From positions 1 through 30,747 of IMG/VR virus record IMGVR_UViG_3300036795_000066: a DNA stretch of 30,747 nucleotides; one strand, 5' to 3'. Under the pieces are notes generated by a model. It ran no database searches. It had not been told where the DNA came from and was given only the letters and a program-made list of their open reading frames with translations. Positions 4,491-30,747 of the stretch are shown here, one piece after another. Origin of the DNA: a virus. The translations under genes were made by a program, and so were the position numbers. Position 1 is the first letter of the stretch, and each line of letters begins with the position of its first letter.

Positions 4491-5230
4491 TACGCTGCTC
4501 CGATCGTTGCCGACACATCCGCCGCGGGTTGCAAGAACATGTACATTCCCAGGAATGCAGGCGACCCAAGGGCAACCGGCACAGACACCGAACCCGTTGT
4601 GCCCGAACTGGTGTAGTTCTTGGCCACCACAAGTAGCCCCGGGTTGTTGTCGAATGCGTAATAAGTGCTACCCGACTTCGCGGTGGCAACCAGGTTTGTC
4701 CACCCAGTCGGGGCGCCCATCGACACCGCCCAAGAAGGCCATGTCCCCGATGGGTCAGGAACAGTACCCATGAAAAATATCATCGTCCCAGCGGCCGGGA
4801 CTGTCACCGAGGTGACTGTTGCAGTAGAAGCACCTGCCGTATAGGCCAGCTGCAAACGGCCTGCAACAGGTGCCACGGTAGGGCTAACCTCACGGGCGGT
4901 GAGGGTGCCGTACATATAGTATTCCCATTGCTGCGGCTTGTAGATTGCAAAACTGGTGTCGTTGTCGCCAGCAACAAGACGCCGGTAATAGGCCCCATTT
5001 GTTTCGTGACCCGGGTTGATGCTGAATGCTGTGGTAAACGTAGTAGGCGGGTCCGGCGTCATCGGCATCGTGAGCGTGATGTCACTGTTGTTGCCCGCCG
5101 ACGCGATGAACGCCATACGGATGTCGTTAGGTTGCCAGTTCGGGCCCAACGGCAACACCTGCGGTTCGAGATGGCCACCTGGTGGGGTGATGCTGACAGA
5201 CATGTCAAAGAAGGAGATCGAGGCAGCCAC
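4490..5230 (-). CDS. beta-rich tail-tip or fibre protein, 246 aa
   Basis: GTG at 5230 with GGGGGAA upstream starts a 246-residue protein. It opens with ASISFFDMSVSITPPGGHL and has two visible beta parts. The second part (from about residue 125) contains TVPAAGTMIFFMGTVP, WAVSMGAPTGWTNLV and SGSTYYAFDN. Its strand pattern (small-molecule-like 'TSVTVPAAGT' followed by 'PTGWTNLV') resembles the beta-sandwich adhesin modules of phage fibres and, loosely, the paralogous domains at 1-509 and 5649-7955. No catalytic residues stand out. With 4020-4490 and 3494-3937 it forms an insertion between the two halves of the DUF5047-like tail protein. Confidence 0.75.
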   Translation of the reverse strand: MAASISFFDMSVSITPPGGHLEPQVLPLGPNWQPNDIRMAFIASAGNNSDITLTMPMTPDPPTTFTTAFSINPGHETNGAYYRRLVAGDNDTSFAIYKPQQWEYYMYGTLTAREVSPTVAPVAGRLQLAYTAGASTATVTSVTVPAAGTMIFFMGTVPDPSGTWPSWAVSMGAPTGWTNLVATAKSGSTYYAFDNNPGLLVVAKNYTSSGTTGSVSVPVALGSPAFLGMYMFLQPAADVSATIGAA

Positions 5231-5238
5231 AATTCCCC

Positions 5239-5625
5239 CTACGGGCCCAGGATGAGGCCGCCGTCAGTGTCGATCTTGACGCCGTTCATCACCCCAGTAG
5301 GTGTGCTGGGTGTCCACGGAAATGCCGCGTTGTAGAGGACATCCGCCGTCTCAGTATTCCTGATTCGCACCCCACGCCAGATCTGCACCCGTGTGCCAAA
5401 GGGGGCCAGCTCCGAGGTCATGCCTTCCGGAGTAAGCGTCCCGGCGGGGTCACTGACCTCAACCTGGAAGCTTCGCATCGTGGCCGCTGTACGGTCCGCA
5501 CCTACCGTGCCAGCGTGAACATCCAGTTGATCAACGATCTTGCCGTTTTGTATGACATCCACGCGGGAGACCGCTGTGTGGGGCTTCTTCGCGGTGGCAT
5601 CAAATTCAGAAGACCTACCTTGCAT
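5239..5625 (-). CDS. N-terminal half of a DUF5047-like tail protein, 128 aa
   Basis: The protein contains AVSRVDVIQNGKIVDQLDV (residues about 18-36), RSFQVEVSDPAGTLTPEG and LAPFGTRVQIWRGV. This is the opening beta region I know from DUF5047-type minor tail proteins, in which the 'R.DVL.DG.VV..L', 'V.DP.GTLTP' and 'PYGT.....RGV' motifs come in this order. In that family about 200 further residues follow in the same chain. Here the frame stops after VKIDTDGGLILGP, and the matching second half is at 2166-3494. It sits 9 bases before the 4490-5230 gene. The two halves probably assemble in the tail tip. Confidence 0.8.
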   Translation of the reverse strand: MQGRSSEFDATAKKPHTAVSRVDVIQNGKIVDQLDVHAGTVGADRTAATMRSFQVEVSDPAGTLTPEGMTSELAPFGTRVQIWRGVRIRNTETADVLYNAAFPWTPSTPTGVMNGVKIDTDGGLILGP

Positions 5626-13401: not shown

Positions 13402-14184
13402 TTAGACGTTGAGGTTGATGCCCCGCGCGAACCCGAGCAGAACCTGCACGTCAGTCGGGGTCCCCGAGGTCGTCCAGACAGCCTGCACATACGGGTTGAC
13501 CGTGGTGGTGCTGGGCAGCTTGATGCGCTGCGAGCCCACTGCCGTCGCCGCTGCGAAGGTGATCAGATCAGTCCAGGTCGTCCCGTCCGGGGAATGCTGG
13601 ATCTTGACCGTGATGCCCGGAGAAGTACCCCCGTCAAACGCCCAAACATGCAGCTGGCCAACCGCACCCGTAGTGGTCGCGCCGCCAAAGGCAACATTCA
13701 GGTCAGTCGAGCCTGTGCCCGACGCACCAGCCAGCAAGGTCTGCGGCGACAGCAGGATGACACCGTCATCAAAAGCGCCACGTGCATCCAACTCAAGGCT
13801 GAAGTCAACGGCATCCTTGAGCTTCGCGGTCACCGAGTTGTCGATGATGGACGAAGGCTGCATGGTGATCGGAGAAAGCGCGGTCAGACCCTCAAGGGCA
13901 AACCAGGCATTGACCGGGCTCTTACGACCCATCCACTGGTTGAGCTGCCAATTGAGCGTTCCCTTGTCCATAGTGGCGAGGCCCTTGATCTTCAAGGACC
14001 CGTCCATCATGCCCGGCAGGGAGTTGCGAACCCGCGCGCCAAAGCCGTCACCGGCAATCTTGTCGGCCTTGCGGGAGTGTTCCAAATCGTTGCCTTGGGC
14101 GCTGAATAGGAACTGCTCCAGCCCCCACTGAGTCTGATAACCGGGGTAAACAAGAGCGCTACCCGGAGAAAGGTCAATGGCCAT
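13402..14184 (-). CDS. major tail tube protein, 260 aa
   Basis: The gene lies between the head-tail joining genes and the chaperone/tape measure genes, the standard place of the tube protein. The first 150 residues hold the likely tube fold, with SALVYPGYQTQWGLEQFLF, an RVRNSLPGMMDGSLKIKG segment and a long strand SVTAKLKDAVDFSLELD. Residues about 165-255 form a second, beta-rich domain (LHVWAFDGGTSPGITVKIQ, WTDLITFA, VQAVWTTSGTPTDVQVL), like the Ig-like or carbohydrate-binding decoration found on many tube subunits. Start ATG 14184 is 3 bases after the stop of the 14187-14429 gene. Assignment by position and architecture. Confidence 0.85.
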   Translation of the reverse strand: MAIDLSPGSALVYPGYQTQWGLEQFLFSAQGNDLEHSRKADKIAGDGFGARVRNSLPGMMDGSLKIKGLATMDKGTLNWQLNQWMGRKSPVNAWFALEGLTALSPITMQPSSIIDNSVTAKLKDAVDFSLELDARGAFDDGVILLSPQTLLAGASGTGSTDLNVAFGGATTTGAVGQLHVWAFDGGTSPGITVKIQHSPDGTTWTDLITFAAATAVGSQRIKLPSTTTVNPYVQAVWTTSGTPTDVQVLLGFARGINLNV

Positions 14185-14186
14185 CG

Positions 14187-14429
14187 TTACTTCTCCTTAC
14201 TGCCGGAATCGCCGGAAGGGGCGGCGGGAACGGGGGTGGACTTCACGGCGATCAGTGGACCCCTGCCATCCGGACCACGCTGGTCCAGCAGATACGGCAA
14301 GTCGAGGGAACCGGTATACGGATCGTCCACCTCGAAGATCGTGACGGCGCCAGTACGAGGATCAACCTGACTGAACCACCGAATGGCAACGTAAGAGTCT
14401 TGCTTCCCTGCCACTAGGATTCCTTTCAT
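14187..14429 (-). CDS. small head-tail region protein, 80 aa
   Basis: ATG at 14429 starts an 80-residue protein with an N-terminal beta part (SYVAIRWFSQVDPRTGAVTI) and a Lys/Ser/Pro-rich tail ending GSKEK. I do not recognise the family. It sits directly before the major tail protein (3-base gap) and after a weak terminator-like hairpin, so it is probably co-transcribed with the tail tube gene. Confidence 0.65.
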   Translation of the reverse strand: MKGILVAGKQDSYVAIRWFSQVDPRTGAVTIFEVDDPYTGSLDLPYLLDQRGPDGRGPLIAVKSTPVPAAPSGDSGSKEK

Positions 14430-14449
14430 TCTCAGGGGTCAACAAATAA

Positions 14450-14466
14450 CCCCCGGAAAGAGGGGG
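14450..14466 (-). terminator. weak terminator-like hairpin between joining genes and tail genes
   Basis: On the minus strand CCCCC (14466-14462) can pair with GGGGG (14454-14450) around a 7-base loop, followed by the U-rich TTATTTGTTG. The stem is short but is G-C only and has a proper U-rich tail. It could lower read-through from head to tail genes. Confidence 0.4.
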
Positions 14467-14480
14467 CCGGGAAAGAGGGA

Positions 14481-14894
14481 TTACGCAATAATAGATACGG
14501 TGAGCTGCGCGTAGGTGTACAAGCCTTCGCCGAACATCATTTCGCTGACAGCACCCTCGACGACTTTTGCGTACCCCCGGCCTCGTCCACCAGGAAACTG
14601 GATGCTGTTCACCGACTTGATCAGCGAAGACCCCGGTGAGATCAACGCGCCGGCCTCTTCCTGGGCTTCCTCTTCAACGATCTGCCCAATCACGAGCATG
14701 ATGAGGAAGTACCACTGGGCTAGCTGGCCGTCGCCGTGATCCACCCGGTAGTCGATTGTTTTATGGGCCTGCGGCTTGATGATCGCCGCAGGTGGGACGA
14801 GTGACCGGGGAACGTAGTAGTAGACGTTCAGATCCGGTTGGTACGCCTGAACAGCGTCCCCCAGGATGTTCTGAACCGTGGCGTAGTCGGTCAC
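14481..14894 (-). CDS. tail terminator or head-tail joining protein, 137 aa
   Basis: I choose GTG 14894, which overlaps the upstream stop as GTGA and has GAGGA five bases before it. A longer frame to 15023 would run back into the upstream gene. The product begins MTDYATVQNILGDAVQAYQP, followed by DLNVYYYVPRSLVPPAAII and QWYFLIMLVIGQI, and has GRGYAKVVEGAVSEMMFGEGLYT near the end. Size, mixed alpha/beta pattern and place immediately before the major tail protein fit a tail terminator or minor connector (HK97 gp10-like). The family is not certain. Confidence 0.75.
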   Translation of the reverse strand: MTDYATVQNILGDAVQAYQPDLNVYYYVPRSLVPPAAIIKPQAHKTIDYRVDHGDGQLAQWYFLIMLVIGQIVEEEAQEEAGALISPGSSLIKSVNSIQFPGGRGRGYAKVVEGAVSEMMFGEGLYTYAQLTVSIIA

Positions 14895-15736
14895 CACTTC
14901 CTCACATATGGATCTAGGATTACGCCCGGATCGCAGAGGAACCGGGTACCGATCCCGGGCGCCTTCGGGTTCTTCCGAGCGCCCGTACCGTCGTGGGTGA
15001 TCGCGCCCATGGCCAACGACCATGTGTTATGTAGCCGTGAGATCAGGATCAGAGCAGCTTCCTGGATGTCATCGGGCAACGCGTTCACCCCGACGCCTAC
15101 CTGGTGCGCGTACATCAGCGGAGGCACCGTCAGGACGTTCCCAGTAACCGCAGTGGGCGTAACAGACTCAAACCAGCGTCCGTCCTGGATCATCAGATCC
15201 GTCTGGCCAGCGATGATCCCGGTCGAATCCACCACGGTCAGTGACTCGTCGCCAGCGGCCAGGGCCTCAGCCACTGTGGTCACTGGGTAACCGCTGACAT
15301 AAGACCACTGCGCCCAGAGATGTGCACCCGGACGGAACGACACACCCGCAGACGGGGGAACCGTAATACGCCAGGGGTCCAGCACCAGGCTAGTTAGATT
15401 GGTTAGCTGGGTGAGGCTGTTCGGGTCGGTACCCCAAGCAACCGAGAGCACCTCGACGATCGGGTTAGCTCGGGTATGCAGCCGCAGCTCTCCCCAGTCA
15501 GACACCACAACGCGCCCGATCTCGCTGTTCGTGGTGGCAGCCATGTTCTGGTTGCACTCACCGTTGATCAGCGCGGAGACTCGCATGATGATCCGGTTTA
15601 GCTCAGCATCGTTGTCAGCCTGCGCTCCACCGGGGATGAGCTTCTGTAGCTGGGTGTAGATCGGCGAGCGCTTCAACTCCGCGACCGTGAGCAGCGGAGT
15701 CACTGGTTGCTTGGGAACCAAACTCACGGCGGGCAT
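14891..15736 (-). CDS. head-tail connector protein, 281 aa
   Basis: The N-terminal 90 residues are helical (LLTVAELKRSPIYTQLQKL, DNDAELNRIIMRVSALIN) and the end has DIQEAALILISRLHNTW, the pattern of HK97 gp6-like connector proteins that bind under the portal. Between these lies a beta insertion (residues about 85-215) with VVVSDWGELRLHTRANP and LLVVDST-like strands, which makes it longer than the usual 100-200 residues. The position, third after the capsid-linked small genes and before the tail genes, supports the call. The ATG at 15736 is 11 bases after the previous stop. Confidence 0.75.
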   Translation of the reverse strand: MPAVSLVPKQPVTPLLTVAELKRSPIYTQLQKLIPGGAQADNDAELNRIIMRVSALINGECNQNMAATTNSEIGRVVVSDWGELRLHTRANPIVEVLSVAWGTDPNSLTQLTNLTSLVLDPWRITVPPSAGVSFRPGAHLWAQWSYVSGYPVTTVAEALAAGDESLTVVDSTGIIAGQTDLMIQDGRWFESVTPTAVTGNVLTVPPLMYAHQVGVGVNALPDDIQEAALILISRLHNTWSLAMGAITHDGTGARKNPKAPGIGTRFLCDPGVILDPYVRKW

Positions 15737-15747
15737 GCGGAGCCTCC

Positions 15748-16047
15748 TTACGGATACGTGGTGAAGATGCTGTTAGCGCCACCAGCCAGTTTGGCTGCCG
15801 GGTACTGGGTCCACGCGCCCAGGTTGTAGCCGACATAGTTGTTCAACGGCACCGAGAAAACCTGCTGGTCGTTGAACACAACAAGAGCGTTGGTGGCTAC
15901 CTGTGCGTCAGCGAACACCTGAACCTGACCAGTCGTGATCCCGGGCTGGGCATTCAGCGCAGTCTGCAGCCCGGCGGTACCCCCACCCGAGGTGTACTGA
16001 GAAAACGAGTACAGCGGAGTCAAATTGGCGGTAGGAACGTACGTCAT
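15748..16047 (-). CDS. small head-tail region protein, 99 aa
   Basis: A 99-residue protein starting MTYVPTANLTPLYSFSQY, with alternating polar strands (VQVFADAQVATNALVVFND, FSVPLNNYVGYNLGAW) and no charged clusters or cysteines. I do not recognise a family. Its place between the zinc-binding small protein and the connector suggests a capsid or neck accessory protein. Confidence 0.65.
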   Translation of the reverse strand: MTYVPTANLTPLYSFSQYTSGGGTAGLQTALNAQPGITTGQVQVFADAQVATNALVVFNDQQVFSVPLNNYVGYNLGAWTQYPAAKLAGGANSIFTTYP

Positions 16048-16050
16048 CGC

Positions 16051-16308
16051 TTATCCCTTCTCACAATCGCCGCCGCAGCGGCCACAGACCTTGAAAAAGC
16101 CGTGGAACCCGCAGGAGATGCAGGTGTACCCGCCGGAGCGAACGGGGGCCGCTGACACATCAGCGACGGTGTAACCAAGTTCCTTAAGCACATTCACATG
16201 ACGTGAATCCGGCACCTCGATGGTCGTACCGCTATAGCGTCGGTTGCCGCCCACAGTTGGTATATCGACCTGCACACACTTATCATCGGGGGAAAGTAGA
16301 CGTGCCAT
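16051..16308 (-). CDS. small protein with C-terminal zinc ribbon, 85 aa
   Basis: The ATG overlaps the upstream stop (TGATG). Residues 1-50 are mixed alpha/beta (VQVDIPTVGGNRRYSG, HVNVLKELGYTVADV). The C-terminus has YTCISCGFHGFFKVCGRCGG, that is C63, C66, C75 and C78 with C82 nearby, a compact C4 zinc ribbon. Small head-region genes with zinc ribbons after the capsid gene are known in actinophages, but I cannot give a function. It is co-translated with the AT-hook-like protein. Confidence 0.75.
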   Translation of the reverse strand: MARLLSPDDKCVQVDIPTVGGNRRYSGTTIEVPDSRHVNVLKELGYTVADVSAAPVRSGGYTCISCGFHGFFKVCGRCGGDCEKG

Positions 16309-26892: not shown

Positions 26893-28317
26893 TCAGCCGA
26901 CCGCCGACAGCATCATGGGCTTGCCACAGTGCTTGCACACCGTCGCCGCGCGCCCGTTGATCCCGGTGCAGCTCGAACATTCGCTGCTGATCGAGTTCAG
27001 GAAGATCAGCGCACTGTTGCCCACCGACAGCTCCGTGGCCGCCCAGACCAGAGCGTCCAGGTTGTCCGGGCTCTCGGTGGTGTCCGGGGTGAACGCGCAC
27101 ATCTGGTCTTCCAGCTCGGGCAGGCTCCCGACGATGTGGCCGCGGCCCTGTTCCCAGAGCGCCGAGATCGGCTCCGCCCGAACGATCTTTCCTCGGGTGG
27201 CCCGTACTGACTTATAGGGCACCGTCGGATCGACCGTACGCAGCAGGTTCTCGATGTAGTCGCCACCGTTGTTGACCTCAGCGACAATCCGGTCGGCGTG
27301 CCAATCCCGGTACATCTGCACGGCCTTAGTCATGCACGAGCGCGGCGTACCCTTCATGGTCTCGTCCTGCAACACGTAGAGGTGCCCCGCGTTGTCCCGG
27401 CCGGCGACCACAATGCCAGTGAAGTCGCTCTTCTCGCCCGAGGTCGTCGCCGGGTCTACCCCGACCACAATCCGCACCAAAGGCGGGAACTTGTCGACCC
27501 GCGTGTCATCAATCATGTCGCGGTTCCACAGGGCGCCTTCAACATCATCGAGGAGTTCACCCTCAAGCTCCTGGCGGCCCATTCGCGTGCCTTCATAACG
27601 GGCCTTCAGCTCAGCCAGCGCCACCTGGGAGAGGTTGTCCGCGTTATCCCAGGTACGCCCACGAATAACCCGCACCGAGCCGTCTGTACGCGCCAGCAGT
27701 TCCTTGAGTAGCTTCACCGGGCGCGGCGTCGTCGTGACCACCACCGTGGGTCGTTCACCGATCCGCAGCGCCGGCATGAGGCTCTCACCCCACAGATCGT
27801 CGGCGTGCGCCATGGAGGCCAGCTCGTCGATCCAGGCCCCGGAGAGGTTCGCGCCACGCAGCCGGTCCGGTCGGTCAGCCGAGTAGCCATAGATCTTGGA
27901 GCCGTTAGTCAATCGAACAGTCAGGTCGGAGGCGTTGCAGCTATCGAGTTCGCCAGGCAGCAGCGCGCGCAGGATTCCGGACTGACCTTCGATACAGACC
28001 TTGCGACAGTCCCGCCACGTCGGTGCGACCACAGCCCATTCCGTGTCCGGGTTGGTCGCGGCCTGCTCAGCCAGCCAGTTACTCCCCGTGGCGCTTTTGC
28101 CCCAGCCACGTCCGGCCAGGTACAGGTGCACCGAGGCGGAGGTCTCAGCGGCGTTGGGGATGCGCTGGTCGTCTCGCGCGGAGGTGTGCCAGGGACGGGG
28201 GCGCTTCGGAGCGTGCTTGGCCAGGAGCTTCTGGTACTCGGCGACGCGCAGGCGCAGCTCAGCCAGCTCTTGGAGCTTCTCCAGCGGAGCTTCGACCTTG
28301 GGGGGTTCGTTGCCCAC
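26893..28317 (-). CDS. terminase large subunit, 474 aa
   Basis: GTG 28317 has AAGGAGGTG upstream. The ATPase half shows Walker A AGRGWGKS (residues 68-75), Walker B WIDELA (162-167) and a coupling-type VVVTTTPRP (192-200). The nuclease half shows the acidic set GVDPATT (D288), AEVNN (E347) and DNLDALVWA (D421). Together these package and cut phage DNA at the portal. Unusually, the C-terminus carries C447, C450, C461 and C464 (CSSC...CKHCGKP), a zinc ribbon that may contact DNA, the portal or a partner. No small terminase subunit is evident beside it. Confidence 0.96.
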   Translation of the reverse strand: MGNEPPKVEAPLEKLQELAELRLRVAEYQKLLAKHAPKRPRPWHTSARDDQRIPNAAETSASVHLYLAGRGWGKSATGSNWLAEQAATNPDTEWAVVAPTWRDCRKVCIEGQSGILRALLPGELDSCNASDLTVRLTNGSKIYGYSADRPDRLRGANLSGAWIDELASMAHADDLWGESLMPALRIGERPTVVVTTTPRPVKLLKELLARTDGSVRVIRGRTWDNADNLSQVALAELKARYEGTRMGRQELEGELLDDVEGALWNRDMIDDTRVDKFPPLVRIVVGVDPATTSGEKSDFTGIVVAGRDNAGHLYVLQDETMKGTPRSCMTKAVQMYRDWHADRIVAEVNNGGDYIENLLRTVDPTVPYKSVRATRGKIVRAEPISALWEQGRGHIVGSLPELEDQMCAFTPDTTESPDNLDALVWAATELSVGNSALIFLNSISSECSSCTGINGRAATVCKHCGKPMMLSAVG

Positions 28318-29413: not shown

Positions 29414-29959
29414 CTAGTCCAGTAGGTCTTCCAGCGTCAGGCCGAGCTGATACGCGTACGACAGATAAGCCTTGGTCAGTTCGGCCACCGCGTGAGCATC
29501 TCCTAGGGCGGTGTGCGCGTTGTCGTAGGTGATGCCCTCGGCCGCGCACAGATCCGCCAGTTTCCGACTACCCCCACGTTGTCTGCGCCCGAGCGCCCAT
29601 GCGGCCCGGATCGTGCACAGGGTGGGGGTAGTTGGCATGTCCAGGCCGGCTCGCTCGAACTCGTAGCGCAGGAAGTTGTGGTCGAAGTTCACGTTGTGCG
29701 CGACTATGACCGTGTCCTTGATTCGCTGAGCTAGATCTTCCGCCACAGCTTCGAACTCGGGCGCCCCGGCCAACATCTCCGCCGTAATGCCGTGGGCGAA
29801 AGTGGGTCCTGGGTCGCAACCGGGATTGACCAGCGTGGAGAACGTCTCGGCTAGCCCACCGTCCGGGTCCAGGACCACGAGCGCGATCTCTAGGACGCGA
29901 TCAGTGCTGGGCCGCAGTCCGGTCGTTTCGAGGTCCAGGCACGCGATCTTTGGGCTCAC
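29414..29959 (-). CDS. DnaQ-like DEDDh 3'-5' exonuclease, 181 aa
   Basis: GTG 29959 is the start. All three exonuclease motifs are present: Exo I CLDLETTGL (D9, E11), Exo II AHNVNFDHNFL (D93) and Exo III AHTALGDAHA (H149, D154), so it is of the DEDDh type. These enzymes remove 3' nucleotides and proofread or trim DNA or RNA. The length is that of a free-standing exonuclease domain without a polymerase. It lies directly beside the GATC-rich region, which suggests a replication role (inference). A 9-bp inverted repeat (29988-29996 and 30027-30035) lies in its upstream region. Confidence 0.92.
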   Translation of the reverse strand: MSPKIACLDLETTGLRPSTDRVLEIALVVLDPDGGLAETFSTLVNPGCDPGPTFAHGITAEMLAGAPEFEAVAEDLAQRIKDTVIVAHNVNFDHNFLRYEFERAGLDMPTTPTLCTIRAAWALGRRQRGGSRKLADLCAAEGITYDNAHTALGDAHAVAELTKAYLSYAYQLGLTLEDLLD

Positions 29960-30060
29960 GACGGGCTCTCACACTCAAAGTAAAGGTGCCACAGACGCAA
30001 GGGTTGTGGGTATCGGCCCTGGAGTGGTCTGTGGCGCATCAACCAGTGTACTTGACTACG

Positions 30061-30104
30061 ATGTTGATCTTGAAACTTCTTTTCTCCAAAAATTTCAAAA
30101 ATGC
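30061..30104. other. AT-rich patch, possible DNA unwinding element
   Basis: The segment is far more AT-rich than the surrounding GC-rich genome, with runs such as CCAAAAATTTCAAAAATG and a TTGAAA/TTTCAA inverted repeat (30070-30075 and 30093-30098). It lies about 70 bases left of the GATC array. AT-rich melting zones beside short repeats are typical of replication origins. Origin function is inferred from this layout only. Confidence 0.5.
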
Positions 30105-30175
30105 TGACGATCATGAACCCTTGCCCTGGAGGACCCACTTGTTGATCTAGTAGGGGGGTGGACACATGGCACAAT

Positions 30176-30360
30176 GTTGATCACCCAAGATCACGAGTGA
30201 TCATCGGACACCCATACGGTGATCATGCATGATCCACTGTCCAAGATCGTTGATCACCCATGATCACCAGTGATCCACTTCATCTCCATTGTTGATCACT
30301 CAAGATCGAATCTGGTCAACAATGATCAACTAGTGATCCAATCTGATCCACTTGTGATCA
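30176..30360. repeat. helically phased GATC array
   Basis: GATC begins at 30179, 30189, 30199, 30221, 30231, 30245, 30252, 30262, 30272, 30294, 30304, 30324, 30335, 30345 and 30356. All but 30245 fall within 1 base of a 10.4-bp lattice. Most are inside TGATCA, TGATCAC or TGATCCA. Longer copies begin GTTGATCACCCA at 30176 and 30249, offset 73 bases (seven turns), with a variant at 30291. Three looser GATC sites lie to the left (30066, 30109, 30144). Spacing by one helix turn puts the sites on one DNA face, as expected for cooperative protein binding. Confidence 0.9.
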
Positions 30361-30747
30361 TCAGGGCCCTGACCTGGCCTTATGCCGTGGCACCCCCATG
30401 CCTGACCCCATGCCTGGCCTGCCCTGATGCCCCGTGCTGGCCCCTGAGAGCGACGCTGACAGCCTCCCCATGCCGCTCCGGTACGAGACAGCCACCCCGT
30501 TGTGGATCATGTGTGTGAGGCTCTGAGGCCGTAACCTAGTTGTGACCACCACCTAGCTCAGTCACCCATTTGGCCTATATGCCTGAGGGTGTGCCTGGCC
30601 CATCCTGATGTCACAACTCAATCAGGTTCGGCAGGCGCCCCGAAGGGCCGGCCGTAGGCCACCCGCACACGCGGCGCTCACCCGGACGGGAGGCGCCAGA
30701 AGTGACAAGAGCGGCTCTGGTCATGATCAATAGCTCGCGCGGCACCC

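Follow-up and report, generated by a model that had tools for sequence, protein, structure and literature searches.

The window, that is, the whole stretch of DNA analyzed here, is a full IMG/VR viral record of 30,747 bp and represents a fragment of a tailed phage. Its minus strand carries the terminase, portal, protease, and tail genes, and the noncoding region between the exonuclease gene (29414-29959) and the end of the record holds 15 GATC sites. The closest phages on record share at most ~49% identity with this lineage in the terminase large subunit TerL. The features of the locus are listed below; genes were called by a simple codon-usage script, by which small genes may be missed.

26893..28317, minus strand: terminase large subunit gene (TerL)
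29414..29959, minus strand: DnaQ-like 3'-5' exonuclease gene (phrog_192), the nearest gene to the core
30054..30103, minus strand: T-run segment, the least stable 50-mer beside the core, in the top 0.01% of the window's 50-mers
30063..30075, minus strand: TTTCAAGATCAAC box beyond the T-runs, also conserved in a number of relatives
30116..30126, minus strand: conserved core GGGCAAGGGTT
30127..30152, minus strand: spacer of 26 bp with variable sequence (24-27 bp in relatives), usually holding another box
30153..30158, minus strand: CCCCCC run, conserved beside the array in relatives
30176..30362, unstranded: 15 palindromic boxes of the type DTGATCAH, arrayed on a lattice of 10.4 bp over 16.9 (about 17) turns
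30176..30275, unstranded: internal duplication, the 27-nt segment at 30176-30202 being repeated 73 bp (~7 turns) further on at 30249-30275 with 93% identity
30313..30320, unstranded: degenerate box TGGTCAAC, whose GGTC at 30314 occupies a vacant lattice position

A DNA similarity search with the array locus retrieved no match from phage and plasmid records, and no Rfam RNA scored above threshold at the locus. No relatives of the window's exonuclease were found in viral contigs; in related phages its position is taken by endonuclease VII, by other genes, or by nothing. Just past the array, at 30397-30425, lie the short repeats CATGCCTGACC and CATGCCTGGCC.

GATC boxes on the helical repeat

The GATC sites are located at positions 30179, 30189, 30199, 30221, 30231, 30245, 30252, 30262, 30272, 30294, 30304, 30324, 30335, 30345, and 30356, with consecutive gaps of 10, 10, 22, 10, 14, 7, 10, 10, 22, 10, 20, 11, 10, and 11 bp. 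Their phase coherence is maximal (R=0.867) for a period of 10.4 bp. Measured in units of 10.45 bp, 14 sites lie at most ~0.12 turn from an integer, the sole outlier being 30245, at 6.32. The lattice fit of fourteen of the fifteen sites, noticed in the sequence-only reading, is thus correct, but the accompanying statement that all gaps are whole turns is not, as gaps of 14 and 7 bp flank the off-lattice site.

Both the GATC enrichment and the helical phasing in the window are confirmed to be real. In 2000 dinucleotide shuffles of the array (GC content 44.7%), a control proposed in the sequence-only reading, the GATC count in 181 bp averaged 4.33 and reached at most 10, below the observed 15, and elsewhere in the window no more than 6 GATC occur per 187 bp. 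The local expectation is therefore about four sites, and not about one as had been assumed. When sites were placed at random 20,000 times, with gaps of at least 6 and periods of 9.5-11.5 bp scanned, the R of the observed spacing was never reached. Neither the count nor the spacing is near what chance would give.

The 73-bp internal duplication, of whose 27-mer a third copy is found at 30291-30317 (74%), means that the sites in the array are not all independent, and it accounts for part of the phasing. When one duplicate copy is removed, the phasing persists (R=0.816, p=0.0045), and the array shortens from 16.9 to ~10 turns. The degenerate TGGTCAAC variant is also present within the array of a relative, G001.

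The box consensus was derived from 64 sites in six arrays: T occupies position -1 in 47 and A position +4 in 46 of them, while C at -2 and G at +5 occur in 1 and 3 sites, respectively. The boxes are thus 8-bp palindromes with the consensus DTGATCAH, a better description than the core motif TGATCA(C/T) or TGATCCA originally proposed. In the window, 8/15 boxes contain TGATCA, and the others are TGATCC, AGATCA, or AGATCG. From the two-fold symmetry across 8 bp we infer that each box would bind one protein dimer, the reader probably being dimeric.

Exchangeable arrays beside a constant core

Relatives were collected by TerL searches (62-85% identity); many were taken from datasets that resemble one another, which limits their independence. 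GATC arrays are present at this locus in the window (G000) and in G001, G003, G004, G005, G006, G013, and G016. Four of these genomes show tight phasing: the window (10.40 bp, R 0.867), G006 and G013 (both 10.55 bp, R 0.965), and G016 (10.40 bp, R 0.979), where the TerL proteins of the latter three are 63-75% identical to that of the window. Their arrays span 11.0 (G006), 11.1 (G013), and 12.0 (G016) turns of 10.45 bp, with boxes near integers. The arrays of G001 and G005 are looser, their best period, 11.4-11.5, falling on or close to the limit of the range scanned. The recurrence of phased arrays at one locus in three relatives is decisive support for the observation made in the window, and it answers the proposal to look for the array in related phages. 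A protein lining up on one face of the DNA or wrapping it, as had been proposed, fits this recurrent phasing and the 8-bp palindromic boxes expected for dimers.

Other relatives carry different repeats at the locus: GGGTGAAC and GTTAGCTAAC in G007-G009, GTCAC/GTGAC in G010, GTCCTATGTGGAC with ~22-bp spacing in G012, GTTACCG in G014, and GGTCAC in G015, while G017 has little repeat content there. In G007, G010, G014, G015, and G017, the locus showed no detectable helical periodicity; base periodicity among the non-GATC arrays is suggestive only in G012, whose units are 22 bp.

The clearest exchange separates G006 from G007-G009. These genomes are mostly 94-99% identical for kilobases on either side of the locus, but ~320 bp including the array are replaced by a block of unrelated sequence without GATC phasing, between flanks that are 97-99% identical. 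Given these flank-sharing relatives with a different block, and distant ones without phasing, the GATC array is an exchangeable, variable half beside a conserved core and not an invariant element. The different block in G007-G009 between retained flanks, together with the absence of phasing from distant relatives, counts in part against the sequence-only reading. The genes in the shared flanks, including that of an XRE regulator, hardly differ, so that a phage-coded reader, if it covaries with the array, should lie outside the compared part; the G006 contig does not include the TerS-like gene described below. A GATC-rich stretch adjoining the array locus in G006 (L092, about 5100-5600) is kept in G007-G009, which have no phased array.

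The constant half was found in 17 contigs, those of the window, G001, and G003-G017. Read in the TerL direction, the element consists of the array, at least 6 C, a stretch of 24-27 bp whose sequence varies, GGGCAAGGGTT (GGGCACGGGTT in G011), and then T-runs. The locus is therefore a two-part noncoding site made of a variable array and a constant core. Runs of five or more T lie on the TerL-sense strand in 15/15 genomes tested, and a run of five or more A was seen in only one. In nine genomes, G000, G001, G003, G004, G005, G010, G011, G013, and G017, including the 122-kb G004, the 50-mer just past the core has the lowest duplex stability of the whole genome or comes close to it (top 0.00-0.1%). 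Combined over ten lineages, the low stability is significant against noncoding windows (Fisher p=5e-9), whereas it is not significant singly in G006, G012, G015, and G016. Hairpin potential in the spacer was not elevated (mean z about 0). Neither core nor array was seen in the regions read of known phages with related terminases, and five matches of the core pattern in bacterial genomes were judged to be due to chance.

Neighboring genes and candidate readers

The array and core lie between a TerS-like gene and TerL in 12/12 genomes in which both were located, whatever the orientation of the intervening genes. In G010 the distance between the core and the TerL start is ~75 bp, and in the others it amounts to 1.3-7.7 kb; the leftward genes that separate the core from TerL in G004-G009 argue against a simple late promoter. 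The TerS-like gene is located 2-13 kb from the array in relatives and encodes a helix-turn-helix (HTH) protein of phrog_645, a family labeled "Rnase E" in PHROGs. Its homologs in Gordonia phages are annotated as terminase small subunits and overlap TerL. By homology and synteny the protein is a putative TerS; a search of its profile against PDB gave no match.

Several proteins were considered as readers of the boxes. The HTH domain of TerS was rejected, as its type A accompanies GATC arrays in G004, G005, and G016 and type B does so in G013; further, G013 and G007 share the same likely recognition helix, GHAHDRF, and have different arrays. The XRE regulator near TerL was also rejected, its first 90 residues being identical in G006 and G007, whose arrays differ. 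No protein restricted to the phages with GATC arrays stood out.

A small serine or tyrosine recombinase is encoded near the TerS-like gene in 11 relatives (G004, G005, G007, G009, G011-G017), 2-12 kb from the core, with the two classes interchangeable, which suggests multimer resolution of a circular genome. A small leftward gene recurs next to the array, at a distance of 0.2-1.8 kb to the left of the core, in G004, G010, G011, G013, G016, and G017; its product starts with MT(A/V)AYDPR or a similar sequence. The TerL gene is interrupted or enlarged in G006 (13691-16189), G013, G015, and G017 (L202, L201, L204), and in G015 and G017 its downstream part starts with an intein-like end (EFYAGGVLVHNC before DEL). 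The G004 phage also encodes a TROVE/Ro60-like protein and TerC- and TerD-family proteins of the tellurium-stress type (L130:2532-4196, L131:2719-3792, and L131:4604-5620).

Possible functions of the site and similar systems

We tentatively favor, while considering it somewhat short of probable, that the array and core form a pac-like packaging-initiation site of an uncharacterized lineage of large tailed phages. The phased boxes would dock a multimeric DNA-binding protein, which could be TerS in its ring form or an accessory protein acting as a dimer. This protein would bend or wrap ~10-12 helix turns of DNA, and the bent or wrapped array could then offer the core to TerL as the place of the initial cut. 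As the small terminases of pac phages can recognize DNA by its shape and depend little on its sequence, the boxes would be free to change or be exchanged next to an unchanging core. This scheme is consistent with the gene order in all 12 genomes, with the similarity of the TerS-like protein to annotated small subunits of Gordonia phages, and with an array length of 11.0-12.0 turns (~10 in the window without the duplication) that matches ring-wrapped DNA; SPP1-type small-terminase rings present about one HTH per helix turn, bind DNA with little regard to its sequence, and are suited to helicoidal DNA ~100 bp long (PMC4737164). Repeats of TGATC(A/G) are used by P1 pac (PMC10028697). All core-bearing contigs run through the core, as expected for headful packaging and mildly against a cos site, a possibility we rejected.

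Phased GATC arrays also occur in the terminase region of a separate, unrelated phage group, which adds to the case for packaging. In this group, arrays with 10-bp spacing are found beside a VRR-Nuc-like gene (L046 3829-3930, L024 1956-2040, L072 3763-3870, and L023 78-160; further members are L063, L111, L025, L040, L041, and L022). TerS matches were obtained in L046 and L072 and a TerL match in L046, whose array lies between TerS and TerL. By eye, the arrays of this group are apparently upstream of sigma-70-like promoters of small genes.

Several observations sit poorly with packaging. The HTH type of TerS does not track the array class, the TerS-like gene is 2-13 kb away, unlike in P1 and SPP1, and the palindromic boxes suggest a dimer per turn and not a ring of like-oriented monomers. 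Five relatives have no detectable periodicity, and an origin would better account for the extremely low duplex stability next to the core. A theta-type replication origin, which we regard as possible but doubtful, is a close rival, and the melting segment is the best argument for it: the boxes would be iterons, the C-run a GC-rich cluster, and the T-run segment a DNA unwinding element, with array swaps changing the initiator specificity or incompatibility group. The clustered repeated sites and the adjacent easily melted 50-mer, extreme in nine genomes, are as this model expects; further, iterons containing GATC are known at the RctB-dependent V. cholerae oriII (PMC2865523). On the other hand, the instability is not significant singly in four genomes, and no initiator gene was recognized beside the array in relatives, although it could lie elsewhere. 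At fourfold sites, the sign of the GC skew switches at the core of G006 and of G013, but the skew is inconsistent in other genomes, and actinobacterial DnaA boxes are not enriched, a single 8-of-9 match lying near the core in G003, G004, and G012 and none in the others. The core travels with the TerL module although the replication genes differ (Prim-Pol and DNA polymerase A in G004 and G011, DnaB helicase in G006), which favors packaging over an origin. Of the binders originally listed, a packaging factor and an initiator both remain leading candidates.

It is rather unlikely that the boxes are an operator array coated by a cooperative repressor or activator dimer, MetJ-like or of another ribbon-helix-helix type, that controls early or late transcription. 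The strong constraint on both sides of the 8-bp palindromes, the location close to where leftward genes and rightward late genes diverge, and the sigma-70-like promoter sequences seen by eye downstream of the arrays in the VRR-Nuc phages would agree with such control, and the cassette swap between near-identical relatives resembles immunity switching, array swaps then being immunity-type changes. However, a scan of 29900-30747 for promoters of the sigma-70-like type, and for terminators, found none; the core lies inside a leftward gene run in G004-G009, away from the TerL start, and the XRE regulator is the same over its first 90 residues in G006 and G007 despite their different arrays. A partition centromere, or an accessory site of a multimer-resolution system, is very improbable. 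The arrays resemble parS-type centromeres and a small recombinase is encoded near the TerS-like gene in 11 relatives, but ParA was found in 0/13 relatives, which disfavors the partition protein among the proposed binders; ParB_N scored above the cut-off in G014 only, which has no GATC array, and the recombinase class does not track the array class (serine in G013, tyrosine in G004, G005, and G016). We give equally little credence to a functionless by-product of tandem duplication of a 10-11-bp unit: the 73-bp duplication in the window and pure tandem GATC repeats in other phages point that way, but the palindromic constraint is kept in the boxes while the intervening bases vary, and four arrays at the same conserved locus all show the phasing.

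In a more inclusive model, to which we assign a minor likelihood, the locus would be a modular initiation site: a constant core of the C-run, GGGCAAGGGTT, and T-run melting segment would be combined, between the terminase genes, with exchangeable phased palindromic arrays of differing specificity, on which a dimeric reader would assemble a wrapped complex that might link replication with packaging. Whatever its role, the site is a clean natural case of binding sites in register with the DNA helix, found at a single conserved phage locus and in more than one lineage. The natural array swap between near-identical genomes makes it testable how the packaging or replication machinery chooses its start site when the boxes change. 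The core also provides a sequence tag for the site in a lineage whose TerL is so distant from those of recorded phages.

In arrays bound by ribbon-helix-helix proteins of the MetJ and ParR types, a dimer occupies each short box and a cooperative filament forms along the DNA; the pitch of MetJ is 8 bp, unlike that of the 10.4-bp array, to which no protein of this kind could be assigned. The parS loci of mycobacteriophage RedRock (PMC7157519) are likewise actinophage arrays of about eight short repeats, but these eight are 8-bp direct repeats, whereas here the boxes are palindromic with a 10.4-bp pitch and no parA is present. At V. cholerae oriII, the 11- and 12-mers of RctB contain GATC (PMC2865523), as do the boxes of our array, and are thus also repeated GATC-containing protein-binding sites; RctB binding needs GATC methylation, while the present boxes are palindromic. 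The pac sites of SPP1 and SF6, at which a small-terminase ring wraps the DNA, would share with our locus packaging-region repeats that are not conserved between relatives, a length of ~100 bp or 10 turns, and a separate cleavage region, although the SPP1 site spans the TerS promoter and gene start and our array is kilobases from the TerS-like gene. Finally, a named element, P1 pac, contains seven hexamers of the form TGATC(A/G) (PMC10028697). The earlier statement that no named phage element is known with exactly the pattern of the window thus calls for qualification, although the pac GATC spacings in the P1 sequence (7, 12, 15, 96, 12, 11, and 28) do not form a lattice. The P1 boxes lie within the TerS gene pacA, in two clusters ~96 bp apart (spacings of 7, 12, 15 and 12, 11, 28), whereas our array is noncoding; further, P1 pac is controlled by Dam methylation, whereas neither Dam (PF05869) nor MethyltransfD12 (PF02086) was found in the window or 13 relatives. 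P1 pac, at ~161 bp, is a cluster of TGATC(A/G) boxes in the terminase region; of the 15 boxes of the present array, 8 match this hexamer, as TGATCA, and the others do not fit it.
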